In this document: in pieces, positions 49,413 to 63,913 of the stretch
Layout: each line of letters starts with the position of its first letter
How positions within the stretch are numbered: position 1 is the first letter of the stretch
Origin: Roseburia sp.
Lineage (GTDB): Bacteria > Bacillota_A > Clostridia > Lachnospirales > Lachnospiraceae
Length of the DNA stretch: 64,000 nucleotides
Reading direction: 5' to 3'
NCBI GenBank assembly: GCA_019411365.1
Contig: DXQT01000005.1
Coordinates: 45,327 to 109,326 of the forward strand
Program-made: the position numbers and the translations under genes
Notes under the pieces: generated by a model
What the model was told of the DNA's origin: nothing
Databases searched by the model: none
What the model saw: the letters and a program-made list of their open reading frames with translations, nothing else

Positions 49413-50987
49413 ATGGATCATGAGAAAGTAATTGTCATTGATTTTGGCGGTCAGTACAACCAGCTGGTTGCGAGACGTGTCAGAGAATGCAATGTTTACT
49501 GTGAAATATATTCCTACAAGACGGATATCGCGCAGATCAAGGCAATGAATCCAAAGGGAATCATTCTTACCGGCGGTCCGAACAGCTGCTATGAAGCTGA
49601 TTCACCGACCTGTTCAAAAGAATTATTTGAACTCGGCGTGCCGGTTTTAGGACTCTGCTATGGTGCGCAGTTGATGATGCACGTACTTGGAGGAAAGGTG
49701 GAAAAGGCACCTGTCCGTGAATATGGTAAGACCGAGGTTATGGTCGATACGTCATCACCGTTATTTACCGGCGTATCAGAAAATACGATCTGCTGGATGA
49801 GTCATTTCGATTATATTTCAAAGGCTGCACCGGGATTTAACATCGTTGCACATACGGCGGATTGTCCGGTTGCCGCAGCAGAGAACCAGGAGAAAGGATT
49901 ATTTGCAATCCAGTTCCACCCGGAAGTGCTTCACACACAGGAAGGCACAAAGATGCTTCACAACTTTGTACGCGGCATCTGCGGTTGTGAGGGAACCTGG
50001 AGAATGGATTCTTTTGTTGAGAATACGGTAAAAGAGATCCGTGAAAAAGTCGGTAACGGAAAAGTACTGCTTGCCTTATCCGGCGGTGTGGATTCTTCCG
50101 TTGCAGCAGGTCTGTTATCCCGTGCAATCGGAAAACAGCTTACCTGTGTGTTCGTAGACCATGGTCTTCTCCGCAAAAATGAGGGCGACGAGGTCGAAGA
50201 AGTATTCGGACCAAACGGACAGTTTGATCTGAACTTTATCCGTGTCAACGCACAGGACCGTTATTATGGAAAATTAGCCGGTGTGACAGAGCCGGAGCAT
50301 AAACGTAAGATCATTGGTGAGGAGTTCATCCGTGTCTTTGAGGAAGAGGCAAAGAAGATCGGTGCCGTTGATTTCCTTGCACAGGGAACCATTTATCCGG
50401 ATGTCGTTGAGAGCGGACTTGGCGGAGAGTCAGCCGTCATCAAATCCCACCACAACGTAGGCGGTCTGCCGGACTTCGTTGATTTCAAAGAAATCATTGA
50501 GCCGCTTCGCAACCTTTTCAAGGATGAGGTAAGAAAAGCCGGACTTGAACTTGGCATCCCGGAAAAACTTGTTTTCCGTCAGCCATTCCCGGGACCGGGA
50601 CTCGGTATCCGTATCATCGGAGAAGTAAATGCCGAGAAAGTCAAGATCGTGCAGGATGCCGATGCCATCTACCGCGAGGAAGTGGACAAGGCAGTGGAGG
50701 AATACACCAAAGCAAACGGAAAGGCACCATCCTGGATGCCGAACCAGTACTTTGCAGCACTGACCAACATGCGTTCCGTCGGTGTCATGGGCGACGAGCG
50801 CACCTACGACTATGCCGTGGCACTGCGTGCTGTTAATACGGTCGATTTCATGACTGCTGAGTCAGCAGAGATCCCGTTTGAGGTGCTCCAGAGAGTTATG
50901 AGCAGAATTATTAATGAGGTGAAGGGCGTCAACAGGGTAATGTATGATTTGACGAGTAAGCCACCGGGAACGATTGAGTTTGAATAA
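49413..50987 (+). CDS. guaA: GMP synthase (glutamine-hydrolysing)
   Basis: Converts XMP to GMP. The 524-residue protein has an N-terminal amidotransferase domain (nucleophile Cys in [11 protein letters not shown], His/Glu in QFHPEV), an ATP pyrophosphatase domain with [11 protein letters not shown] and a C-terminal dimerisation domain ending [11 protein letters not shown] 49413 has GGAGGAAGAAG upstream; an ATG at 49368 has no such site. The 3' end serves as the integration site of the element that follows, and the C-terminus appears intact. Confidence 0.97.
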
Positions 50988-50988
50988 T
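50976..50988. other. Left attachment site (guaA 3' end)
   Basis: GAGTTTGAATAAT covers the last codons and stop of guaA plus one base and recurs exactly at 63901-63913. CACA follows one base later in both copies. Confidence 0.8.
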
Positions 50989-51098: not shown

Positions 51099-53039
51099 TT
51101 AACTCTCAATAATTTGTCCGTTTATTTGTTTCTTGAAAATACCAGTATCTATGAGCGTTTCGATGGTTCGTGATACTTTCGCATTTGGACAACCAAGCTG
51201 AGCAGCAATAGTCTTATGTATTCCTACTTGCCATGGTTGAGCAGGTAACATTTCTTTTACAGTTTCTATAAATTCTTCGTCTATTTGATAATCGTCATAT
51301 ATAAAATCTTTTCTTTTTTCAATAGAAATAAAATCAGGAAGTTGATAATGGGTTGCTAATTCTTTGAGAATCAAATTTGTTTGCTGTCTACTTGACAAAT
51401 TCCTAATTGACTTAAGATGATTGTCATTGAAGAATTTTATAGTGTTATGCGTTACATCTTCGATAAGTTCTTTAGTTATAAGTTGAGGATTTAATCTTAT
51501 AATATCGTTTGTACCAAAACTCAGTTTACCAATTACTTTAGCGGTGACTACAAGAGACACAATGGGTCTTACGGATCTCAAATATTTATCTTGGCTTGCT
51601 TTAATCGTTCCTTTATAGTTAGGTGTAATGCTATCAACTTTTTTTAATATTATTGCAATGTTAATCCATACAGATAAAGGAATTTGTTCGTTGAACACTT
51701 TGTTGTATTGGATGGGATTATTCATAAACTTTGATTTCAATAATACTGCTCTGTGTGGTAATTTTAAAATTAAACTTGTATACCCTCCGGCAAGATATAA
51801 AGGGGTTACAATGTCACAAGTAGGAATTCCAAGATTTTGATAATATTTATCTTTGCGTTCATAATATATATCATGTTTGTATAATATTTCTTCTATATCT
51901 TTTTGTATTTTATCAGTTGCATGTAATGAATATAGTGGAATTACAGATTGGTTATTGGTTGCTTGTATAATATTTTTTCGTACTAAAGGATCTGTAGATA
52001 CAACTATTTTAACTAAAACTGAACGGTTGGTAGTATCTGTTCCTCCATTTGAAAAATAGTTGAAAATGGTATTTGTGGTTTGTAATCCATTTACTATTTG
52101 TATATTGTCTGTTTCAATAATGTCGTCATATAGAGTGGCGCTTGAAGTAAGAATGGTTATTCCGTTGTTAAGATTCCAAAAATCAATCTTTTCTGAAGAT
52201 TCTAAAGAATTCATAATATCCGTATTGGTTCTGTTGTTTCCAAGGTAATCACGAACATTTTCCTCAAAAAAGTAGCGTTTTAACTTTTGTTCAGAGTCTG
52301 TTATGAAATTGAAGTAGTCTGTTAGTCCAACTAAAACAACAAAATCTTTACCGCATTGGAATCCTTTTTTTATTTTTAATTCCACAGTGCCGTTTCTTTT
52401 TGTGCGATATAATATAAGTAATTCTTTAGAACCAATGAATTTCATTTCTGATGTTGTTATAGAAAAAAGTTTATTACATGTAGCCTCAATTTTTCTTCCC
52501 TTACATTTGATATTATACGCAACAGTTTCAGAAACACCTCTAGAAATATATCTGATATATATGTTGGTTTTTGTAAGTGCAGGCGAAAGTTTTCTGTATA
52601 AGTGTATTAACAACTCCCTCTTAGCTAATATATCACTCTTGTATTTACTTTTTAGCGACTCTGCCTTGATTGTCATATCAAATAATTCTGAAAGAGACGA
52701 ATCAAGGCTTTCTAGTGGGTTTAATTCGTAGGTGTCGTGATGTTTACAGGTTAAGACATATATTTCCAAATGCGCGTTTGTTCGTGGAAGAATAGCTGAC
52801 TTGTCTGCGACATAGTTACCATTTACAAAAAAGTAAAGCCCATCAATTCCACCATCGTCGCTACCGTCGACTAAGCCATCAATGATTTGGTCACGAGTTA
52901 AATCATAGTTTTTTAGTAGTTCAGATATCGCAAAATCTTCAAAGGCTTTTCCACGATTTTCATTGGTATCATCCATACCGTTTGATGAAATTATGTCATC
53001 AAGAATTCCGTCAATTAATATTGTATCATTTGTTGCCAT
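51099..53039 (-). CDS. AIPR-family (abortive phage infection) protein
   Basis: A 646-residue protein with the AIPR domain hallmark FWNLNNGITILTSSATLYDD followed by QIVNGLQTTNTI (about 280-325). The N-terminus looks like a PD-(D/E)xK nuclease fold: Glu34 (KAFEDFA), Asp66 (DGGIDGLYF) and TCK99 at the ExK position. The C-terminal ~60 residues resemble a winged helix (AAQLGCPNAKVSRTIETLID). AIPR proteins act in phage defence. GAGGAG precedes the start, and the gene lies 17 bases downstream of the XRE regulator on the same strand, so they form an operon. Confidence 0.85.
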   Translation of the reverse strand: MATNDTILIDGILDDIISSNGMDDTNENRGKAFEDFAISELLKNYDLTRDQIIDGLVDGSDDGGIDGLYFFVNGNYVADKSAILPRTNAHLEIYVLTCKHHDTYELNPLESLDSSLSELFDMTIKAESLKSKYKSDILAKRELLIHLYRKLSPALTKTNIYIRYISRGVSETVAYNIKCKGRKIEATCNKLFSITTSEMKFIGSKELLILYRTKRNGTVELKIKKGFQCGKDFVVLVGLTDYFNFITDSEQKLKRYFFEENVRDYLGNNRTNTDIMNSLESSEKIDFWNLNNGITILTSSATLYDDIIETDNIQIVNGLQTTNTIFNYFSNGGTDTTNRSVLVKIVVSTDPLVRKNIIQATNNQSVIPLYSLHATDKIQKDIEEILYKHDIYYERKDKYYQNLGIPTCDIVTPLYLAGGYTSLILKLPHRAVLLKSKFMNNPIQYNKVFNEQIPLSVWINIAIILKKVDSITPNYKGTIKASQDKYLRSVRPIVSLVVTAKVIGKLSFGTNDIIRLNPQLITKELIEDVTHNTIKFFNDNHLKSIRNLSSRQQTNLILKELATHYQLPDFISIEKRKDFIYDDYQIDEEFIETVKEMLPAQPWQVGIHKTIAAQLGCPNAKVSRTIETLIDTGIFKKQINGQIIES

Positions 53040-53056
53040 AAATATCTCCTCATATT

Positions 53057-53689
53057 TTAATCTTTCTTCGGTTTCCGCTTCCTCTTTACATATGAGAAAT
53101 CCGGAAACAAATCTTTCAATGCTTCTGCAACTTCTTCATTTTCAATCATCTCCTGAACCATCATCTGGTCGTCATCTGCTAAATCAAGAGATACCGAGTA
53201 AGATGTATCACTATCTATCGGATTTGCAGGGAAGCGGATTTCTTTCTTGTAGTAATCACTTTCGGTGATTTCTCCGTCATCGAGTTTGTCTCTTAATCTT
53301 GCCCAGTACTCAACCATTTTTTTGAATGAATCTAAATCCTCCTGCGGACGAGACCCGGCACTTGGAAGCCGTTCTTCAAACTTTAATACTACTTTGCCAT
53401 CCTTTATGGTAGGTCGCAATCCATATGCCCATTCCATATCAAATAACACATGGAGTGCACTGAAGATATTTGCTACATCCGGATCTGAAAGTGCAAAGAA
53501 GCTGACATTAAGATGATTCGCAATATTAAGCAAAGTTGCTTCGTCGGGATAACGATTTCCTAATTCGTAGTTTCGGATTGTAGACTCATTAAGTCCGCAT
53601 CGCTCAGCCAATTCCTTTTGGGTAAGTTCGGCTGCGATTCGGAAGTTTCTGATTAAAACGCCTACTCGGCTGGTAAATTTATCGCCCAT
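53057..53689 (-). CDS. XRE-family repressor
   Basis: A 210-residue regulator with an N-terminal Xre helix-turn-helix (IRNFRIAAELTQKELAERCG then LNESTIRNYELGNRYPD, residues 13-50) and a longer C-terminal part of unknown fold. AAGGAG precedes ATG 53689. It is divergent from the excisionase-integrase operon, with three spaced palindromes in between, which are its probable operators, and lies in an operon with the AIPR gene. Confidence 0.85.
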   Translation of the reverse strand: MGDKFTSRVGVLIRNFRIAAELTQKELAERCGLNESTIRNYELGNRYPDEATLLNIANHLNVSFFALSDPDVANIFSALHVLFDMEWAYGLRPTIKDGKVVLKFEERLPSAGSRPQEDLDSFKKMVEYWARLRDKLDDGEITESDYYKKEIRFPANPIDSDTSYSVSLDLADDDQMMVQEMIENEEVAEALKDLFPDFSYVKRKRKPKKD

Positions 53690-54020: not shown

Positions 54021-54218
54021 ATGGAGAACAAAAGATTTATCAATGTGCAGGATGTGGTGGAAGAGCTTGGAGTCTCGACATCATATGCATATAAGCTCAT
54101 ACGCGAATTAAACGCAGAGCGAGCAGCAGATGGATTTTTGACAATCAAGGGACGAGTCAGCAGACAGTATTTTGATGAACGAATCTATGGAACAACAGAT
54201 AAGAAAGAGGTGGTTTGA
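54021..54218 (+). CDS. Excisionase-like helix-turn-helix protein
   Basis: A 65-residue basic protein, RFINVQDVVEELGVSTSYAY then KLIRELNAERAADGFLTIKG, typical of small winged-helix excisionases or DNA-binding factors next to integrases. GGAGGT lies 9 bases before ATG 54021. Its TGA overlaps the integrase ATG (TGATG), which indicates translational coupling. Probable recombination directionality factor. Confidence 0.7.
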   Translation: MENKRFINVQDVVEELGVSTSYAYKLIRELNAERAADGFLTIKGRVSRQYFDERIYGTTDKKEVV

Positions 54219-55312
54219 TGGCGGTTATTAAGAACCAAAAGACCGGAATGTGGGAGGTCAGGACTTATTACAAGGACTGGACTGGTACACGAAGGCAAAA
54301 GACCAAGAGGGGCTTCGCTAAGAAAAGCGATGCCCTTGAATGGGAAAGAGCTTTTAAGTTAAAGGATGAATTGAATATCAATATGAAATTTGCAGATTTT
54401 GTGGAACTGTATCTGTCAGATATTCAGCCAAGAATTAAATACAATTCTTACCTGACGAAAAAGCACATTATTGAAACAAAGATTTTGCCATACTTTGGAC
54501 ACAGAAAGTTGAATGAGATTCGTCCGGCGGATGTGATTCAATGGCAGAATGAGATTATGAAGCTCAAGAAGGACAACGGAGAAGCGTATTCTCCGACTTA
54601 TTTAAAAACCATACACAATCAGTTGAGTGCCATCTTAAATCATGCAGTTAATATGTATGATTTGAAGGATAATGTGGCTCGAAAAGCTGGTTCTATGGGG
54701 AAAGAAGAGTCGAAGGAAATTATGTTTTGGACTCAGGAGGAGTATCAGGCATTTATTGAGCAGGTGGCGGACAAGCCAATCTCATATTATGCATTTGAAA
54801 TTCTGTATTGGACAGGAATTCGTGAAGGAGAACTGCTGGCACTGACACCTAACGATTTTGATTTTACGAAGAAAACACTTCGCATCAATAAATCGTATCA
54901 AAGGCTGGAGGGGAAGGATGTAATTACAGATCCGAAGACACCGAAGAGTAATCGAGTGATTGTTATGCCGGATTTTCTTGCTCTTGAAATTGAAGATTTT
55001 ATCAGTAGATTGGATGGCATTAGAAATGATGATAGGATTTTCACCATTTCAAAGAGTTATTTGCATCACGAGATGGACAGAGGCGCAAAGCTGGCAGGTG
55101 TTAAGAGAATCAAGATTCATGGACTCAGGCATTCACACATTTCACTGCTGATTCATATGGGCTATTCGGCACTTGCGATTGCTGAAAGAGTAGGACATGA
55201 GGCAGTTGATATCACTTATCATTATGCACATTTATTTCCAACGGTACAGTCAGATATGGCTGTGCATCTAGATTCAGAAAGGGAGGAGCTTATCAATGTC
55301 AGAAAAAAATAG
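54218..55312 (+). CDS. int: Tyrosine recombinase/integrase
   Basis: A 364-residue integrase that inserts and excises the element at guaA. It has an N-terminal arm-binding domain (GMWEVRTYYKDWTGTRRQKT), a core-binding domain (about 55-150) and a catalytic domain with Arg202 (GIREGE), Lys243 (TPKSNR), His301/Arg304 (HGLRHSH), His327 (VGHEAV) and Tyr336 (YHYAHL). All catalytic residues are present. It resembles Tn916-type integrases in layout. It overlaps the xis-like gene upstream and mobC downstream. Confidence 0.94.
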   Translation: MAVIKNQKTGMWEVRTYYKDWTGTRRQKTKRGFAKKSDALEWERAFKLKDELNINMKFADFVELYLSDIQPRIKYNSYLTKKHIIETKILPYFGHRKLNEIRPADVIQWQNEIMKLKKDNGEAYSPTYLKTIHNQLSAILNHAVNMYDLKDNVARKAGSMGKEESKEIMFWTQEEYQAFIEQVADKPISYYAFEILYWTGIREGELLALTPNDFDFTKKTLRINKSYQRLEGKDVITDPKTPKSNRVIVMPDFLALEIEDFISRLDGIRNDDRIFTISKSYLHHEMDRGAKLAGVKRIKIHGLRHSHISLLIHMGYSALAIAERVGHEAVDITYHYAHLFPTVQSDMAVHLDSEREELINVRKK

Positions 55313-55667
55313 AGATGCAAAAAACAGATGGAGAACGGTGACAGTGGCATTTCGCTTGTCACCGGAAGAAAATGAGGAACTTACTAACCGCGTAAAAATG
55401 TGCGGGTGCAGGACGAGACAAGAGTATATTATACAAAGCATTCTGCATCAGAAGGTTGTGGCTACAGGCAATCCGCTAATGCTGGTATCATTTCGGCAGA
55501 ATCTGCAGCACATTGAAGCAGAACTGGAGCGGTTACAAAAAGCGGATGACATGGATTCGGAGCTGCTAACACCAATCAGAACTATGCTGGAGATATTGGA
55601 GGCGTTTCGCGAAACGCCTCGTACTCTGGCAGGTATGGAGAGGCTGACAGCCAGTGATGAAGACTAA
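55296..55667 (+). CDS. mobC: MobC-like relaxosome protein
   Basis: A 123-residue protein with a ribbon-helix-helix-like start (WRTVTVAFRLSPEENEELTN then RVKMCGCRTRQEYIIQSIL) and the central LVSFRQNLQHIEAELERLQK region of MobC accessory proteins, which help the relaxase at oriT. It overlaps the integrase gene by 17 bases. A perfect 22-bp palindrome lies within its 3' part. Confidence 0.78.
   Translation: MSEKNRDAKNRWRTVTVAFRLSPEENEELTNRVKMCGCRTRQEYIIQSILHQKVVATGNPLMLVSFRQNLQHIEAELERLQKADDMDSELLTPIRTMLEILEAFRETPRTLAGMERLTASDED
55599..55620. repeat. Perfect 22-bp palindrome inside mobC
   Basis: GAGGCGTTTCG is followed directly by its complement CGAAACGCCTC. It encodes EAFRETPR within MobC, yet the DNA symmetry is exact, which suggests a protein-binding site or cruciform. 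Confidence 0.8.
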
Positions 55668-55700: not shown

Positions 55701-56078
55701 ATGGGACAGCAAACATTATTTGAAAAAATAGGTGTTCAGTATGAGGAAAGAGACGGATTGTTTTATCCGTTAATCACATTAGATATTAAGGATGATGGTG
55801 TGAATGTTGGAAAATACGGGCATATGTGGATGCAATATTTAAAGTCAGAATATCCACAGCGGTATCGGAGTCTGCTACGATTCGGGGAACTGAACCAAAA
55901 GGCAGCAGAGGTAAATGAAGTGGCTTATGAATTGCTTGAGGATATTGAAACGGAATGGCTACAAAAGCATAAGCCGAGGAATAAAAATTCTTTTTCAGAA
56001 ATGTATAAGCTGAGAACGGAAGCAAGGCTGATAGCAGAGGAAGTTGTATTACATGATGTGGTGAATTGTTTTCACTAG
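55701..56078 (+). CDS. TnpV-family transposon protein
   Basis: A 125-residue small protein of the TnpV family found on clostridial mobilizable transposons. It has an acidic N-terminus (TLFEKIGVQYEERDGLFYPL) and a helical C-terminal half (LRFGELNQKAAEVNEVAYEL) typical of the family. Function unknown. AAAGGAAGCG precedes ATG. Confidence 0.75.
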   Translation: MGQQTLFEKIGVQYEERDGLFYPLITLDIKDDGVNVGKYGHMWMQYLKSEYPQRYRSLLRFGELNQKAAEVNEVAYELLEDIETEWLQKHKPRNKNSFSEMYKLRTEARLIAEEVVLHDVVNCFH

Positions 56079-56207
56079 ATGCAAAGGATGGCATGATACA
56101 TAGCTCATTTATTCCTACCGGAGCATAGAGATTTTTGTTGTACTTTGGCAGGATAGAGGCAAGTTGTAGACTTCGTATGAAGTGGAGTCGCAGTTGGTAA
56201 ACAATAT

Positions 56208-56369
56208 GTCGCGTATCCGCGACTATAGCCTCTCCGGCGAGGAGCGCAAAACCCGCTTGCGGGTCTGCATTTTTGATGCCGCAGGTGTCAAAAGTGCTTT
56301 TACGTTACTTTTGACAAAAGTAACAAAACCTTCCCTGGGAAATTTACTGATATGTGCCGTATCCGGCAC
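56208..56369. other. Putative origin of transfer (oriT)
   Basis: The 346-base gap upstream of the relaxase gene contains a series of inverted repeats: GTCGCG-TATC-CGCGAC (56208), CCTC...GAGG (56229), ACCCGC-TT-GCGGGT (56251), TGTCAAAAGT...ACTTTTGACA (56286-56316) and GTGCCG-TATC-CGGCAC (56354). It is much more GC-rich than the rest of the element. The position next to mobC and mobV fits an oriT; the nick site is not identified. Confidence 0.6.
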
Positions 56370-56424
56370 GAGTACGGATAAGAAGGAGGTGTACGCATAC
56401 ATAGGAAAAGGAGGTAGATTTCAG

Positions 56425-57696
56425 ATGGAAAGAACGATTAGTTTTATGAATGGGGAAGGGTCACTTGGTCATAATACAAGAGCATTTATTGCGGCAAATG
56501 TGGATGCAGACAGAACAAAAGATAATATCACTCTTGTGCATGAAGATTTGAAAAAGGTGTATCACAAATTGTTTGATGATTCTCTTAAAAAGTACAATGC
56601 CAAGCAGAAACGCAAAGACAGGCAGATTAAGAATTATTATGACAAGATTTCAAGAAGCAAGCAGGAGAAGCTTTTTTATGAAGTCATTGTGCAGATAGGG
56701 AACAGAGATGATACCGGCGTGGGCAGTGCTGCGGCTGATACTGCAGTTAAGGCATTACAAGATTATGTGGAGTTATTTATTCGCAGAAATCCACAGCTAT
56801 ATGTATTTGGGGCTTATATTCATATGGATGAAGAGACGCCACATGTGCATATAGATTTTGTACCGTTTTCAACAGATAACAAGAGAGGATTAGAAATAAA
56901 AAATTCCCTTAAGGGTGCGCTTGCCTCCAGAGGTTTTGAAAGTGAGGGCAAGGGTAATACCGAATGGCAGCAGTGGTCGGAGGCAGAGAAAGAAGATATT
57001 GCCATGATAATGCAGAAATACGGTGGTGGCTGGAAAAAACTGGATACACACAATCCACATTTGTCGGTTTTGGATTATAAAAAGCAGGAGCGTAGCCGGG
57101 AAGTCAAAGAATTAGAGCAGGAGCTTGAAGATATCGGTGTTGTAATTGAGTTAAAAGAAGAACGAGAAGCTCAGTTGAACGATGAGATTCATAAACAACA
57201 AATGTGTTTGAAAACAGAACGAGAGGAAGCGGAAAAGACCTTAGCGATAGTAACATCCCTGAAAGATAGAATCATGGAAGAAGGGGTTGCACAAGAAAAA
57301 TATAATAAAGCTTTGGCTGCTGATGGTCAGGAATTGGAAGATATTATTGCAGATAAAAAGAAACAGTTGGCAGATGTGCAGGTAGCACTTAATAAGGCTC
57401 GTGCAGTATTTGAGAATGCAAATGAAAAACTGGCTCAGGCAGAGGAAGAATTGTCAGAGGTTAAAAAACTTAGGGATGACCTGATAAAGCAGGGTGAAGG
57501 GGATTATTATCTAAAGGAAGAGGTTATTCAGCTGAGGTATGAAAACCAAAATCTGAAAAAAGAAAACAAGGGGCTGCAGGAGAAACTGGATAAGGCGTAT
57601 GAATTTATGAAAAAGTTTGTGATTGAAGGAAAGTCAATGCTTGATAAGTTTCTGGAGTGGATTGGCGAGAAGGTTAGAGAGGGGAGGGGGAGGTGA
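56425..57696 (+). CDS. mobV: MobV-type relaxase
   Basis: Nicks oriT and leads the strand during conjugative mobilization. The 423-residue protein carries the HUH metal-binding motif HMDEETPHVHIDFVP (His133, His140, His142) typical of Pre/Mob (MobV) enzymes, then a long coiled coil (about 225-405) ending in a basic tail. AAAAGGAGGT lies 10 bases before ATG 56425. The frame is open upstream to 56182, but that part is oriT-like DNA. Confidence 0.88.
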   Translation: MERTISFMNGEGSLGHNTRAFIAANVDADRTKDNITLVHEDLKKVYHKLFDDSLKKYNAKQKRKDRQIKNYYDKISRSKQEKLFYEVIVQIGNRDDTGVGSAAADTAVKALQDYVELFIRRNPQLYVFGAYIHMDEETPHVHIDFVPFSTDNKRGLEIKNSLKGALASRGFESEGKGNTEWQQWSEAEKEDIAMIMQKYGGGWKKLDTHNPHLSVLDYKKQERSREVKELEQELEDIGVVIELKEEREAQLNDEIHKQQMCLKTEREEAEKTLAIVTSLKDRIMEEGVAQEKYNKALAADGQELEDIIADKKKQLADVQVALNKARAVFENANEKLAQAEEELSEVKKLRDDLIKQGEGDYYLKEEVIQLRYENQNLKKENKGLQEKLDKAYEFMKKFVIEGKSMLDKFLEWIGEKVREGRGR

Positions 57697-57901: not shown

Positions 57902-58375
57902 ATGCGGACAATGTTGTTAAGCTTTAAACCTGAATGGTATAACAGGATTAAAGAAGGAAGCAAGATTTTTGAATATAGAAGAACATTTCCAGATGAAGAA
58001 ATATTGGCATATATGTATGTGAGTAGTCCAATGAAAATGATAGTGGGAAAGATTCATCTGGGACGAAAAATAGACATCAACACTTGGAAAGAGGAATACA
58101 AGGAAGACGCACAGGTGTGTGAAAGGGTAGATGATTTCCTTACAAGACACACATATGCCATGCCTATCTTATCTTTTCGGATGACCAAGGAAATAGACTT
58201 GGAAACACTTCGGAAGTTTAATCCGAATTTTGTATGTCCTCAAATGTATTATTATCTGGAAAACTATCCTGAATTGTTTGAGTTTATTAAGAAAAATGCA
58301 ACAGACATTGGAAAGCCACAAGTTAATTCATTTGAAAACATAGGAAAAGAAGAGATATGTAGAAAACAATACTAG
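57902..58375 (+). CDS. ASCH/PUA-like domain protein
   Basis: A 157-residue protein whose first ~110 residues (LLSFKPEWYNRIKEGSKIFE, YRRTFPDEEILAYMYVSSPM, GKIHLGRKI) match the ASCH-type pattern KP.W...I..G.K..E.R, a fold related to PUA that binds RNA or modified nucleotides. The C-terminal 45 residues are not recognised. It is the first gene of a run in which gaps are only 3-40 bases. Its role next to a restriction-modification pair may be to sense modified bases; this is inference. Confidence 0.6.
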   Translation: MRTMLLSFKPEWYNRIKEGSKIFEYRRTFPDEEILAYMYVSSPMKMIVGKIHLGRKIDINTWKEEYKEDAQVCERVDDFLTRHTYAMPILSFRMTKEIDLETLRKFNPNFVCPQMYYYLENYPELFEFIKKNATDIGKPQVNSFENIGKEEICRKQY

Positions 58376-58386
58376 GAGGTCTTGTT

Positions 58387-59268
58387 ATGGGTGATTTTGG
58401 TGATGCAGAAAGAAGAATATTAGCATTTATGGCTGAAGGAACAGAGTTCGTGTTCCAAGAGAAGAATTATAAAATAATTCTTTCAGGAAAACCAACATGC
58501 CATAAAGGTGAGCCTAAAACAGATATTTATATTTTAGCAGAATCGTCATCTGATAAGGTGGAAATAAAAATATCATATAAAAAAGAAAACGCTGATTTTA
58601 TTGAGAATAAGATGAGTGCAGATAGAGCAGAGCAATTATTCGGCGAGGACTGGGTAAATATTATTGAGCAATCGACAATGGCTATAAGTGATAGATTTGA
58701 AGAAAGAATGCTCATATATAAGAATAAGTTTAAGAGAACGGAAAAGGGCGCTATCACTTTGGGATGGAAGTTTGAGCTTTTAAACAAAAATAGTGGAGAT
58801 TTATCAGGTAAAATGCTACTTACAGAAGAACAGGTTATTGATGTGTATGCAGGTAGTAATTTGGTAGATGATAAACGAAATGCTATGGTGTCAGGACAGG
58901 TTATTGAGAATAGCGGCATAGCCAATTACATATTGATGGATGAAAATGTAAATTCGGCACAAGACGTAATTGATAAAATGGTTCCGATTAAAGAGTATGT
59001 GAAGATGCACCCTGATATTTACTTTGCATGTAAGGCATTGAATTATCGTACATTTGCTGGAAAATGGGATGGAGACAGACCACTTTCGGTTCAAGTGTAT
59101 TGGAATGCTGAAGACAATAAACTTGTTCCCGAATTGGTGTATGATCAGCCATTAACTGTTAAGGGAAATGAAGTGGCGAACAGGTTGTTGCATTATATGA
59201 AAAAGCTAAACATTAAAACAACAGACGACATTGATGATGACAATGCCGGGACAGATAGAATAATTTAG
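58387..59268 (+). CDS. PD-(D/E)xK nuclease, probable type II restriction endonuclease
   Basis: A 293-residue protein. The N-terminal part has Asp46 in GEPKTDIYIL and Glu59-x-Lys61 in KVEIKISYKK, the spacing of a PD-(D/E)xK catalytic core, followed by ADFIENKMSADRAEQLFGED. The rest (VDDKRNAMVSGQVIENSGIA, TFAGKWDGDRPLSVQVYW) is not recognised. It lies 10 bases before a cytosine methyltransferase gene on the same strand, as in type II systems. The recognition site is not deducible. Confidence 0.68.
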   Translation: MGDFGDAERRILAFMAEGTEFVFQEKNYKIILSGKPTCHKGEPKTDIYILAESSSDKVEIKISYKKENADFIENKMSADRAEQLFGEDWVNIIEQSTMAISDRFEERMLIYKNKFKRTEKGAITLGWKFELLNKNSGDLSGKMLLTEEQVIDVYAGSNLVDDKRNAMVSGQVIENSGIANYILMDENVNSAQDVIDKMVPIKEYVKMHPDIYFACKALNYRTFAGKWDGDRPLSVQVYWNAEDNKLVPELVYDQPLTVKGNEVANRLLHYMKKLNIKTTDDIDDDNAGTDRII

Positions 59269-59278
59269 AGGTGAAACC

Positions 59279-60577
59279 ATGGCTGTTATTTTAGAAGAAA
59301 GAGGGCGTGGCAAATTTAAGCCGGCTCCAGATTATAAAGTGGATGAAGTCAAGGAACTTTTGAATGCTAAAATTGAAGAAGAAAGACAAGCGTTTGCTGA
59401 TTGTAGTGAAGAAATAGAGTTTGATAAACTCAACTATGATCCGAATAAATGGAACTTGCTGTCATTGTTTTCGGGATGTGGTGGTCTTGATTTAGGATTT
59501 GAATTAGCTGGATTAAAAGCCGTTATGGGTGAAGAAGTTATGGAAGCTGCATTTGCTGATAAAAAGGTTTTTGATGAAAACATTAATAATAATGTGTTTA
59601 ATACGATTTATGTAAACGATATATTTGATGAGGCAAGAGAAACCTATGCACAGAATGCGGGTAAATATATATATATGGACAAAAGCGATATAAGAAAGAT
59701 AAAGGAGTTTCCTAAGGCGGATATTGTATTAGGAGGTTTCCCTTGTCCGGGTTTTTCTGAGGCTGGACCGAGACTGGTTGATGATAAGAGAAACTTTTTA
59801 TATTTGCATTTTATTCGTTGTTTGATGCAGAGCAAACCGAAAATTTTTGTGGCTGAGAATGTAAAAGGAATGATGACTCTTGGCAAGGGCGAGGTTTTTA
59901 AACAGATTGTTCAGGATTTTGCAGCAGCGGGATATACAATATATCACAAACTTTTAAACTCGGCAGAATATGGTGTGCCACAGATAAGAGAACGAGTGAT
60001 TTTGGTTGGTGTCAGAAATGATATAGACTTTGAATATGTACATCCAGAACCAACACATGGGTATGGTGTTGAAGGCTTAAAAGAAGTAGTTACGCTTCGT
60101 GATGCGATTGGTGATTTGGAAGATAATCCGGGAGATTATTTTACCGGTTCGTATTCGACCATTTTTATGTCACGTAACCGAAAGAAACTTTGGACACAAC
60201 CAAGTTTTACGATTCAGGCATCTGGTAGACAGGCACCTATCCATCCGGCAGGAGAGCCTATGGTGCATGTAGGTAAAGACAAATATATCTTTAGTGATGG
60301 TGAAGAAAACAATAGAAGGCTGTCGGTTAAAGAGATTGCTAGAATACAGACATTCCCTGATTGGTATGAGTTTAGCAGGGGAACAAGTAATAGAAACGAT
60401 AATGCAAAGTTGGATTTGGTTTATAAGCAAATCGGGAATGCAGTGCCGGTAAGATTGGCATTGGCTGTTGCTGAACCGATTGCAGTGTTTGCAAAGGAAC
60501 TGTTGGAGAAAGAAAAAGAAGAAGCGGAATATGTTGTTATTCGTAATGTAGGAGAGCAGAAAAGGATGATGGCATAA
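59279..60577 (+). CDS. C5-cytosine DNA methyltransferase
   Basis: Methylates cytosine in a specific DNA site, probably protecting the host from the adjacent nuclease. The 432-residue protein has motif I LFSGCGGLDLGFE (64-76), motif IV PCPGFS with catalytic Cys156, motif VI AENVKGM (192-198), motif VIII QIRERVILVG and motif X KQIGNAVPVRLA. A 55-residue N-terminal extension precedes motif I. The region between VIII and X sets the target. AGAGGTG precedes ATG. Confidence 0.93.
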   Translation: MAVILEERGRGKFKPAPDYKVDEVKELLNAKIEEERQAFADCSEEIEFDKLNYDPNKWNLLSLFSGCGGLDLGFELAGLKAVMGEEVMEAAFADKKVFDENINNNVFNTIYVNDIFDEARETYAQNAGKYIYMDKSDIRKIKEFPKADIVLGGFPCPGFSEAGPRLVDDKRNFLYLHFIRCLMQSKPKIFVAENVKGMMTLGKGEVFKQIVQDFAAAGYTIYHKLLNSAEYGVPQIRERVILVGVRNDIDFEYVHPEPTHGYGVEGLKEVVTLRDAIGDLEDNPGDYFTGSYSTIFMSRNRKKLWTQPSFTIQASGRQAPIHPAGEPMVHVGKDKYIFSDGEENNRRLSVKEIARIQTFPDWYEFSRGTSNRNDNAKLDLVYKQIGNAVPVRLALAVAEPIAVFAKELLEKEKEEAEYVVIRNVGEQKRMMA

Positions 60578-60617
60578 AAAAGCAATAATTGATTCTGGAA
60601 AGGGAAGTGGTGAGAAC

Positions 60618-61637
60618 GTGCAGGATTTTTCAAGTGTAAATATAAAAAATATGATTATTCATAATGTGGGAAATAAAGTTAAAGGTGAATCGTTAGAGAT
60701 ATCAACGGAAATATGTGATGCTAATAATGAAGTAACAAATCAATATTTGAAACAATTCTTTTTTTCTACATTTAAATTTGATGTAACATATAGATTTGTA
60801 CATGAAACAGATATTGCAATGAATGAAATATATAATTATGTTAAACATATATTTGAAAACCCAAGTGAGTTTTATGAACAATCTGTCAATATTGCTAAAC
60901 ACTTGTATGAAGTGTCAGTGCATCCCAATATAAAAGCAGGAGAATTGTATATAGTTTATTTACAAAATTGCATAATAGATGATAATGTTACTGATGCAAT
61001 AGGAATTTATAAATCGGAATCTAAGGATTATTATTTGCAAGTAAATAGTAATGGAAAGAGATATGATATTGAATGTCAACAGGGTATTAATCCTAAGAAA
61101 TTGGATAAAGGTTGTCTTATATTTAATTTGTCAGATTCAAATTATAAGGTATATATTGTGGATAGAAATATTAATGATGCTATGTATTGGAAAAAGAATT
61201 TTTTGATGATTGAGGAAGAAAAAAATGAATATACCAATACAGCAAAGGTATTGAAGTCTTGTAAAAAATATATTGCTAAAAAAGAAAATATAGAACCTGA
61301 AAAAAGATTGGAACTGATGAACAATTCTGTAGAGTATTTTGAAAATAATGAAGAATTTGATTTGGAAAAATTCACAGAAAAAGTATTTGATAATCAGGAA
61401 GAATCGGATAAATTTAAAGTTTATATAGATTCGTATGATGTAGATAACAAATTTAGTATATCGTCGAATGCTGTAACTAAAATTAAGAAGACAATAAAGA
61501 AATGCATCAAGTTAGATGATAATGTGGAGATTAAATTTAGTGATACTGTAGATGACATTGATAATCTGATTGAGAAAGGTTACGATAGGGAAAAGAAAAG
61601 AAAATACTATAAAATATATTATAATGATGAAGATTAG
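60618..61637 (+). CDS. NdpA-like 37-kDa nucleoid-associated protein
   Basis: A 339-residue protein matching the NdpA/YejK family of nucleoid-associated proteins: IIHNVGNKVKGESLEIS at the start, QYLKQFFFSTFKFDVTYRF, YVKHIFENPSEFYEQSVNIA then KHLYEVSVHPNIKAGE, and LDKGCLIFNLSDSNYKV. It starts at GTG 60618 (GGTGAG nearby). Such proteins bind DNA. Here the gene sits between the methyltransferase gene and a GapS4-like pair, so it may be part of the defence module rather than housekeeping. Confidence 0.78.
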   Translation: MQDFSSVNIKNMIIHNVGNKVKGESLEISTEICDANNEVTNQYLKQFFFSTFKFDVTYRFVHETDIAMNEIYNYVKHIFENPSEFYEQSVNIAKHLYEVSVHPNIKAGELYIVYLQNCIIDDNVTDAIGIYKSESKDYYLQVNSNGKRYDIECQQGINPKKLDKGCLIFNLSDSNYKVYIVDRNINDAMYWKKNFLMIEEEKNEYTNTAKVLKSCKKYIAKKENIEPEKRLELMNNSVEYFENNEEFDLEKFTEKVFDNQEESDKFKVYIDSYDVDNKFSISSNAVTKIKKTIKKCIKLDDNVEIKFSDTVDDIDNLIEKGYDREKKRKYYKIYYNDED

Positions 61638-61651
61638 GAGGGGCAAATATA

Positions 61652-62599
61652 ATGGCCGGTGGTGAAAAAGCGAAAAGTTCGGGCGAATATGGAGAACAAA
61701 TTGTAAAGAACATTCTTGAGCTGATGGGATGGAACAATGCAAATAGTGGGGTGACGGTACCATGTGTACATAAAGAAAAACATAAAAAGGAAAATTCTAA
61801 AGAACCCCAAAAGCATGGAATTGATTATGTCTATACATATAAATCTCAATTAAGGGATGCCACTAAACAAGATGTTTTGGTAAGTGTTAAATGTAGAGAT
61901 GGGTATCCAGCAACAGATAGCGGAGTGAAAAGTAAATTTAAGGAATTTGTATTGGATTTGGCGTATGCAATGGAGTGCTATCCAGCATGCGAATTAGCCA
62001 AGAAAAAGATACCTAATACAGATAAGAAGGTTATATCAGGGCTGATATTTTGGATTGATCGAGGAAGTGAAGATGGTCGCGAAAATGAAAGTGTGATAGA
62101 CAAAATAGGGAATTTTTATATGAATCAAGAATGTGTGTATGAAACAATAGCATTGGTGGACAACAAAAGGGCACAATTCTTATATCAGTTGTTATCATAC
62201 ACTCGTTCAAAATATGGTAAGGAAAATGTTGAGTTTTTTTATATTGATACGGGATTGAATAATTCTAGTATACAACGCGTATATAGAGGAAAAGAAATGC
62301 CATATGAGTATGTTAACTCAAATGTTATCCCATTGGCAATTAGCAATGGTGACGAAAAAAGATTGTTTATTGGTGTTGCGGAATCTTTTTGCAAAGAGTA
62401 TTTAGAACGTTTGATAGGATTGGCACAGGAATTAACTAGTACATGGACTGCAAAGGTTACAATTGCATTTCCAGATTATAATTCATTTGAACATAGGGAA
62501 GCGGTTTTGATGGCAAAAAGTTCTTTTGAAAATGCAGATTTTGTGAACAGTATTGAGGTTATAACATATAAACCAGATTTCAGAGATGAGGTGATTTAA
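61652..62599 (+). CDS. GapS4a-like PD-(D/E)xK nuclease
   Basis: A 315-residue protein with a restriction-endonuclease-like N-terminus: SGEYGEQIVKNILELMGW (Glu12/Glu15), KHGIDYVY (Asp58) and VLVSVKCRDGYP (Lys80). From memory of the family it resembles GapS4a of the two-gene GAPS4 anti-phage system; I could not verify this by search. The C-terminal half is not recognised. AGGAGGGG precedes ATG 61652, and the next gene begins 3 bases after its stop. Confidence 0.58.
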   Translation: MAGGEKAKSSGEYGEQIVKNILELMGWNNANSGVTVPCVHKEKHKKENSKEPQKHGIDYVYTYKSQLRDATKQDVLVSVKCRDGYPATDSGVKSKFKEFVLDLAYAMECYPACELAKKKIPNTDKKVISGLIFWIDRGSEDGRENESVIDKIGNFYMNQECVYETIALVDNKRAQFLYQLLSYTRSKYGKENVEFFYIDTGLNNSSIQRVYRGKEMPYEYVNSNVIPLAISNGDEKRLFIGVAESFCKEYLERLIGLAQELTSTWTAKVTIAFPDYNSFEHREAVLMAKSSFENADFVNSIEVITYKPDFRDEVI

Positions 62600-62602
62600 T
62601 AT

Positions 62603-63727
62603 ATGGAAGAAATAAATATAAAAACATTGCTTCCAGTTGGTGAAAAACTAAAACCATTGTTAAGCAAATCATGTATAAGTGAGGCTGATTTGAAGGGGAT
62701 TTTAGCAGAACGTGGGGTATTTATTGGCGATAATTCTAAACAAATGTCAATTCCTCTTTTGACACTTTCAATAATAAGTCCTAAAGAGTTTGAAAAATTG
62801 CAAGAGTTTCAAAAGACCAAAGAAGACAGTGTGAAATTTCGAACCTCTAAAATCGAATCATCAACAACTGAAAATTTAAATGATATAGTGCCACTTTCTT
62901 TGATTGAGCCTCAAAAAATAGTAGATGATTCAAGTAATTATACTGTTAATACTGATATGCAATTTACAATGAACTCTGAAAATAATCTTGTTCTAGAATA
63001 CGAAATTTTGCGAGAGGATATTACAAAAGATTGGGCAAATTGTGAGAGTAAATTTTCAGGAAGAGTTGAAATTGTAAAAGATGAAAAAACAAGAGAAATT
63101 ACATTTAGAAATGAGTTCACATCATCTGAAACCGAAGCAATTAATCGAAAAGTTGTTAAGGATGTAGTGAAACTTTTAAAGGACAAAGGTGCAGTAGCAA
63201 CTTCTGATAATGCAACAGAGCTATCTGCTAAAGAATTCAGTAATAATCAACGATTTATGTTTATGCTGTCAATAGCTAATAACAGTCCAAATGGATTTTT
63301 AGAGTTTGAAGCAGTGAAAAATATAGAAATAGGACCAGATAGGGAATCAAAACAGCCGTTGCCCGATTCTGCAAAATGGATGAATGGAAGTGTAAAAAAT
63401 ATTATAATTAACAGTGAAAAAGGGGAAACATTAGAGAATGTAGAATACATTTCTGATCCGTCATATCATGATGTGCTAATACTTAGGCAAGTTCAGGCAC
63501 AGTATAGATTCGAATTTGGAGAAATGAATGGATTTTGCATTATTGAATACGGTTTTCCACATTATTTTAGAAAATATGTAAAAGGAGATGCATTTGAATC
63601 TCGTTTGGCAAATATTTATTTTGGCAAAACAAGTAAAAGTCAAAATGTAAAAAATGCAACTAGATTGATATTAGAAGAATTTGAAAAATTATATCAAACG
63701 CAATATCATTTGTGCTTGAAAAGATAA
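62603..63727 (+). CDS. GapS4b-like partner protein
   Basis: A 374-residue, acidic-to-neutral protein with no signal peptide or membrane segment. The C-terminal part (YHDVLILRQVQAQYRFEFGE, FCIIEYGFPHYFRKYVKGDA) looks globular. It shows no catalytic motif that I recognise. Its coupling to the GapS4a-like gene (GAGGTGA ribosome site inside the preceding gene end) and its size fit GapS4b. Treat the name as a hypothesis. It is the last gene before the right end. Confidence 0.5.
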   Translation: MEEINIKTLLPVGEKLKPLLSKSCISEADLKGILAERGVFIGDNSKQMSIPLLTLSIISPKEFEKLQEFQKTKEDSVKFRTSKIESSTTENLNDIVPLSLIEPQKIVDDSSNYTVNTDMQFTMNSENNLVLEYEILREDITKDWANCESKFSGRVEIVKDEKTREITFRNEFTSSETEAINRKVVKDVVKLLKDKGAVATSDNATELSAKEFSNNQRFMFMLSIANNSPNGFLEFEAVKNIEIGPDRESKQPLPDSAKWMNGSVKNIIINSEKGETLENVEYISDPSYHDVLILRQVQAQYRFEFGEMNGFCIIEYGFPHYFRKYVKGDAFESRLANIYFGKTSKSQNVKNATRLILEEFEKLYQTQYHLCLKR

Positions 63728-63900: not shown

Positions 63901-63913
63901 GAGTTTGAATAAT
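63901..63913. other. Right attachment site
   Basis: GAGTTTGAATAAT is identical to the guaA end at 50976, again followed by one different base and CACA. Confidence 0.78.

Follow-up and report, generated by a model that had tools for sequence, protein, structure and literature searches.

Gene content of the locus

The window analysed here is a stretch of 64,000 nucleotides from a Roseburia sp. contig, and the subject of this report is a cluster of six genes within it that encode, in order, an ASCH-domain protein, a type II restriction endonuclease, a C5-cytosine DNA methyltransferase, an NA37 protein of the NdpA/YejK family, and the proteins GapS4a and GapS4b of the anti-phage system GAPS4 (Table 1). 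An earlier note had suggested that these genes could form one composite system. The evidence presented below supports a different arrangement, in which the locus consists of two independent defence modules, a restriction-modification (R-M) module and a GAPS4 module, carried on one mobilisable island that targets guaA. Distribution and sequence comparison further suggest that GAPS4 would need an NA37-family partner, supplied either by the host or by its own operon, and we place the probability of this reading as a whole at roughly 0.52.

The open reading frame (ORF) listing places all six genes on the plus strand between 57902 and 63727, with successive intergenic gaps of 11, 10 (between the neighbouring endonuclease and methyltransferase genes), 40, 14 (NA37 to GapS4a) and 3 bases (GapS4a to GapS4b), which confirms the close packing on one strand described in the earlier note. 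Profile searches of all six proteins against Pfam, PADLOC and NCBIfam also upheld the gene names proposed there, including those of the last two genes, which both exceed the curated NCBIfam cut-offs. The ASCH gene scores 18.6 bits in Pfam, below the cut-off of 21.2, and its match to PADLOC PDC-M11B is clear. The start codon of the NA37 gene is GTG. G+C content is 30% in the NA37-GapS4 part, 37% in the R-M part and 42% in the whole window. The proposal that all six genes lie behind one promoter was not confirmed, as 28 promoter-like sites were counted against 30.6 ± 4.6 in shuffled sequences, and the 40-base gap 5' of NA37 leaves room enough for a second promoter.

The GapS4a of the window carries E12, E15, H55, D58, S78 and K80; across 22 sequences the last five are invariant and E12 is retained in at least 90%, and we take these conserved residues to be the site of a PD-(D/E)XK nuclease. 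GapS4b, for which an AF2 model was used, is possibly an RdgC-like DNA-binding protein. The model of the window NA37 has the YejK fold and resembles the YejK structure 9be2, with 12% identity over the structural alignment. Druantia was also considered, DruM2 being the best PADLOC match of the methyltransferase. DruE of Druantia is a very large helicase, and this candidate was rejected on finding no such gene adjoining: none of the ORFs listed exceeds 646 amino acids (aa) at 51.1-57.7 kb or 504 aa at 56-64 kb.

Table 1 Features of the six-gene cluster and of the island that carries it (window positions).
Feature	Position	Strand	Evidence
ASCH-domain protein, first gene of the R-M module	57902..58375	+	Pfam ASCH below cut-off; PADLOC PDC-M11B 4e-16
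Type II restriction endonuclease	58387..59268	+	PADLOC REase_II 1e-52
C5-cytosine DNA methyltransferase	59279..60577	+	PF00145 1e-67; TIGR00675; PADLOC MTase_II 5e-98
NA37 (NdpA/YejK family), first gene of the GAPS4 triad	60618..61637	+	PF04245 1e-36, 127.2 bits (cut-off 24.6)
GapS4a, predicted PD-(D/E)XK-type nuclease	61652..62599	+	NF047933 345 bits (NCBIfam cut-off 270)
GapS4b	62603..63727	+	NF047934 311 bits (NCBIfam cut-off 300)
13-bp direct repeat, left copy	50976..50988	+	guaA last three codons, stop and one base; likely attachment site
AIPR-family protein (abortive-infection type)	51102..53039	-	PF10592 3e-34
HTH regulator of the island	53060..53689	-	PF01381 1e-12
Tyrosine integrase of the island	54218..55309	+	PF00589 4e-17 and PF14659
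NikA-like mobilisation protein	55296..55664	+	PF21983 5e-11
TnpV-like protein	55701..56078	+	PF14198 7e-25
MobV/Pre relaxase	56182..57696	+	PF01076 4e-16
13-bp direct repeat, right copy	63901..63913	+	likely right island end

Two separable modules on a guaA island

Eighteen GAPS4 loci were read (the window, from genome G001, and L004-L014, L019-L022, L095 and L096), and the order GapS4a-GapS4b of the window is common to the other 17. NA37 directly adjoins the pair in 10 of the 18. It precedes GapS4a in nine of these triads (the window, L004, L005, L006, L007, L009, L010, L019 and L020, the last with GapS4b cut by the contig end) and comes last, in the order a-b-NA37, in the Bacteroidales locus L014; spacing within the triad is 2-14 bases in the four loci measured. 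Locus L008 begins at a contig end, and L044 is a second contig end in that genome; as the two align to neighbouring halves of L006 (99.5% and 99.9%), L008 is counted by inference as an eleventh triad. These loci are partly non-independent, with L005, L006 and L008 near-copies of one lineage and the window and L004 representing one island type. The recurrence bears out the earlier idea of linking the NdpA-like protein to the GapS4 genes and supports a three-gene variant of GAPS4 (NA37-GapS4a-GapS4b), of which the second module of the window is a predicted member.

Several other loci resemble parts of the triad. L016 and L035 hold distant GAPS4-like pairs (the L016 GapS4b scores 40 bits against the 300-bit cut-off) that are preceded, in place of NA37, by a gene without a Pfam match, which may be a different third partner. 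Six predicted proteins (P0093, P0094, P0095, P0099, P0102 and P0152) fuse segments of the window NA37 with segments of one or the other GapS4 protein, or miss part of NA37; the junctions of these joined proteins differ, and they are either real deletions or assembly chimaeras. A 90-residue GapS4b remnant, 63% identical, in genome G100 (L003/L030) is probably a decayed copy; neither GapS4a nor NA37 was detected in the 14 kb read there. In L014 an N6 DNA methylase with a Methylase_S domain (L014:6515-8953), of another kind than the R-M genes of the window, lies just before GapS4a.

How firmly are the first three genes of the cluster tied to the triad? Relatives of the ASCH, endonuclease and methyltransferase genes accompany the triad in two of the 10 stretches read (the window and L004) and are missing from the other eight, whose flanks range from 0.3 kb (L005, each side) to 9 kb. 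The triad without these genes was found in Firmicutes, on two IMG/VR contigs and in one Bacteroidales genome, so that the neighbourhood analysis proposed in the earlier note finds NA37-GapS4a-GapS4b recurring without the R-M pair. Conversely, the nuclease occurs without GAPS4 on a Psychrobacter plasmid, together with its own methyltransferase, and in three genomes (G078, G124 and G180; the first two at contig ends), none of which yielded a GapS4b match; the Psychrobacter plasmid is absent among the two plasmids that carry GapS4a. In G078, 36 nuclease residues at the contig end are followed by a methyltransferase 84% identical to that of the window and then by unrelated genes, while G124 has a C-terminal nuclease piece at the contig end adjoining another methyltransferase. 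The nuclease of G180 is full-length and 55% identical, and no methyltransferase of the window's kind was found in the 20 kb read there. Moreover, comparison of protein clusters (93 for GapS4a, the best 120 of 3761 for NA37, and 119 of the best 120 of 1671 for the endonuclease) gives 15 longest-contig sizes shared by GapS4a and NA37, against 0-3 at shifted offsets, one shared by GapS4a and the endonuclease, and none shared by NA37 and the endonuclease. The first module is an ASCH-associated type II R-M pair that is separable from GAPS4.

These results bear directly on the composite originally proposed, in which all six genes would act together and methylation or the R-M nuclease would guide GAPS4. 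The six genes do occur together in two genera (the window and L004), and in L014 another R-M-type gene stands directly before GapS4a. However, the two islands that hold all six genes belong to a single type and share guaA as their site, and the eight triads lacking R-M relatives and the nucleases found apart from GAPS4 argue against a single machine, which we regard as highly improbable. Methylation-guided restriction found no support. Nuclease action assisted by a nucleoid protein, the other mode suggested in the earlier note, may still apply to the triad.

The six genes are the cargo of a mobilisable island of ~12.9 kb at the 3' end of guaA, a gene identified by Pfam whose last codon ends at 50984. 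The rationale for this statement comes from the paired 13-bp repeat (Table 1) and from a related island in Lactobacillus rogosae (L004), which has the identical six-gene set and 86% DNA identity to the window over 6.4 kb; the homology stops at 63912, and a guaA with the same end is located upstream on that contig. At the opposite end of the Roseburia island from the six genes lies an AIPR gene, which may add a third defence gene to the cargo; in the stretches of the L. rogosae contig that were read (L004, L106 and L107), tblastn gave no AIPR relative.

NA37 as a candidate partner of GAPS4

A central question is why NA37 adjoins the GapS4 pair in some loci and not in others. It is not beside the pair in seven of the 18: L011 (Pseudomonas), L012 (Chryseobacterium), L013 (labelled Pantoea, with only ~1 kb of upstream sequence), the plasmids L021 (Ewingella) and L022 (Pantoea), and two E. 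coli loci. Of these last two, L095 is part of a prophage, flanked by genes for tail fibre assembly and for the tail sheath, and L096 adjoins an integrase gene at tRNA-Gly. The Ewingella GAPS4 DNA was matched in four of 5426 E. coli genomes, three of them at 91.2% identity, and L095 is the context of the one opened among those three.

Absence from the neighbourhood does not mean absence from the genome. NA37 was found in all 12 GAPS4-bearing genomes searched, a set covering hosts other than those of L019-L022, L095 and L096; nine were detected by PF04245, and G963, G964 and G965, missed by that profile, are known positives found with our own alignment. The genomes of L011, L012 and L013 have their NA37 away from GAPS4, and G969 and G970 have two each. 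In the families of the Pseudomonas and Chryseobacterium genomes, where GAPS4 has no neighbouring NA37, the protein is present in 49/49 and 56/60 genomes. Among groups with triads it is present in 30/59 genomes of the Bacteroidales family (29 over the cut-off), in 27/120 of the family that holds the genome nearest to the window (26 above the cut-off; the search overlooked one or more known positives, including G070) and in 61/293 of that genome's class; these baselines cover families other than those of L007 and L009. E. coli alone matched among 14 named control genomes. NA37 is thus near-core in the two families measured whose GAPS4 has no neighbouring NA37 and patchy in the three groups with triads.

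NA37 and GapS4a have diverged together. Their distance matrices correlate with a Mantel r of 0.87 over 24 pairs, 15 of which were matched by the size of the longest contig with the contigs themselves unread, and of 0.80 over 16 thinned pairs (both p 0.0001). In both NA37 trees the L014 protein falls among those of Bacteroidota, and, given also its different gene order, it was recruited separately, which makes at least two recruitments. The trees conflict on the Firmicutes. A careful tree of 94 rows puts the GAPS4-linked Firmicutes NA37 in several places, with L010 and a group of L009, L019, L020 and P0187 off the main branch, whereas a quick tree of 113 rows, from which 27 of the 94 had been removed (long rows, near-copies or redundant ones) and in which 46 viral rows were included, groups all of them together but the long row L007. 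L012 (Chryseobacterium, without a neighbouring NA37) is sister to L014 (Bacteroidales, with one) in the GapS4a tree, at support of 82/88 on long branches, a contrast that fits a rule of host- or operon-supplied NA37.

One alternative is that NA37 is a hitch-hiker, conserved beside GAPS4 by chance. NA37 occurs on many viral contigs and is described on a mobile element (PMC10561277). The co-divergence, the tight spacing and the separate recruitment with another gene order in L014 argue against such an association, and we consider it quite improbable. A second alternative gives NA37 a role outside the defence machine, in the transcriptional regulation or silencing of the operon or island. This has a precedent in NdpA2 of the integrative and conjugative element (ICE) PAPI-1, which regulates the genes of the element with TprA and MvaT and showed no binding to the promoter DNA assayed (PMC8565334), and it would suit the first position of NA37 in nine of the 10 triads. 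NA37 is, however, tied to GapS4a and GapS4b in differing surroundings rather than in one island type, and is the last gene in L014; a purely regulatory role is therefore rather unlikely.

NA37 also has a life of its own, and its presence does not imply GAPS4. It lies on 47 IMG/VR contigs, which were examined together with as much as 4 kb of either flank; 46 of them (L110-L155) have no GapS4 gene in those flanks and show varied neighbourhoods. NdpA/YejK on phages is in print as well (PMC10305613). A further alternative builds on these genes: GAPS4 would monitor NA37, whether of the host, its own or of the phage, as a guarded bait, and the nuclease would fire when a phage alters or replaces it. 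The quick tree places GAPS4-linked Firmicutes NA37 nearer to viral NA37 than to the sampled Clostridia chromosomal NA37, a closeness favoured by the sampling, because viral rows were obtained through GAPS4-type alignment patterns and Clostridia rows through the Pfam profile. The same evidence suits a plain cofactor role equally, and the bait must be called unlikely.

We favour the dependence of GAPS4 on an NA37-family partner, which the distribution suggests and which accords with the recurrence of the triad without the R-M module, the co-divergence of NA37 with GapS4a and the presence of NA37 in every GAPS4 genome searched. Where NdpA/YejK is core to a lineage, the host would supply NA37 and GAPS4 would be two genes; elsewhere the operon would bring its own. 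NA37 would sit on phage or replicating DNA, GapS4b, if RdgC-like, would couple to it, and GapS4a would cut DNA upon some infection-specific state. The strict form of this model, an NdpA/YejK-dependent immunity whose nuclease acts only through an NA37-family protein, the host's where it is core and the operon's elsewhere, is a tentative possibility. Certain points weigh against the dependence. Independent contrasts are few, the evidence consists of sequence comparison and distribution, and a simple substitution of one NA37 for another sits poorly with the Pseudomonas core protein, which has no detectable pairwise similarity to that of the window (the Chryseobacterium protein is 35% identical). 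For the latter reason, the probability of the whole reading was lowered from roughly 0.58 and confidence in the strict form was reduced by a similar step, while the regulator and hitch-hiker alternatives each gained slightly.

If this dependence were true, a poorly understood nucleoid protein would gain a role in immunity, and the target choice of GAPS4 could be tested in E. coli K-12 by deleting a single gene. The dependence would also account for GAPS4 being a two-gene system in some phyla and a three-gene system in others, and would give meaning to the NA37 genes on viral contigs: because phages carry their own NA37 genes, the family would be a marker, a decoy or a counter-measure.

Comparison with known systems

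The R-M module matches type II systems with a C5 methyltransferase in its REase_II and MTase_II profiles and in its adjoining genes on one strand, and adds an ASCH gene of the PDC-M11B type. Compared with NdpA/YejK (PF04245), the window NA37 exceeds the gathering cut-off and shares the fold but is operon-borne, and in the trees it branches apart from the sampled chromosomal NA37 of Clostridia. An interaction of YejK with topoisomerase IV is given in a citing passage of PMC10561277. A DefensePredictor system with a YejK nucleoid-associated domain, validated against phages in 2026 (PMC13092281), resembles the triad in that domain; the section describing it names no accompanying genes, and a search for 'GAPS' in the main text found nothing.

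GAPS4 itself was reportedly described by Mahata et al. in 2024 as a two-gene anti-phage system of GapS4a and GapS4b; that paper falls outside the literature searched, in which nothing was found on GAPS4 together with phage or on GapS4a. The window agrees with the two-gene system in that both proteins pass the NCBIfam cut-offs and follow the order a-b with a 3-base gap. It departs from the two-gene composition of E. coli by its third gene: NA37 stands ahead of the pair, an arrangement shared with the other Firmicutes triads read, whereas the GAPS4 loci read from E. coli, Pseudomonas, Chryseobacterium, Pantoea and Ewingella have no NA37 beside it.

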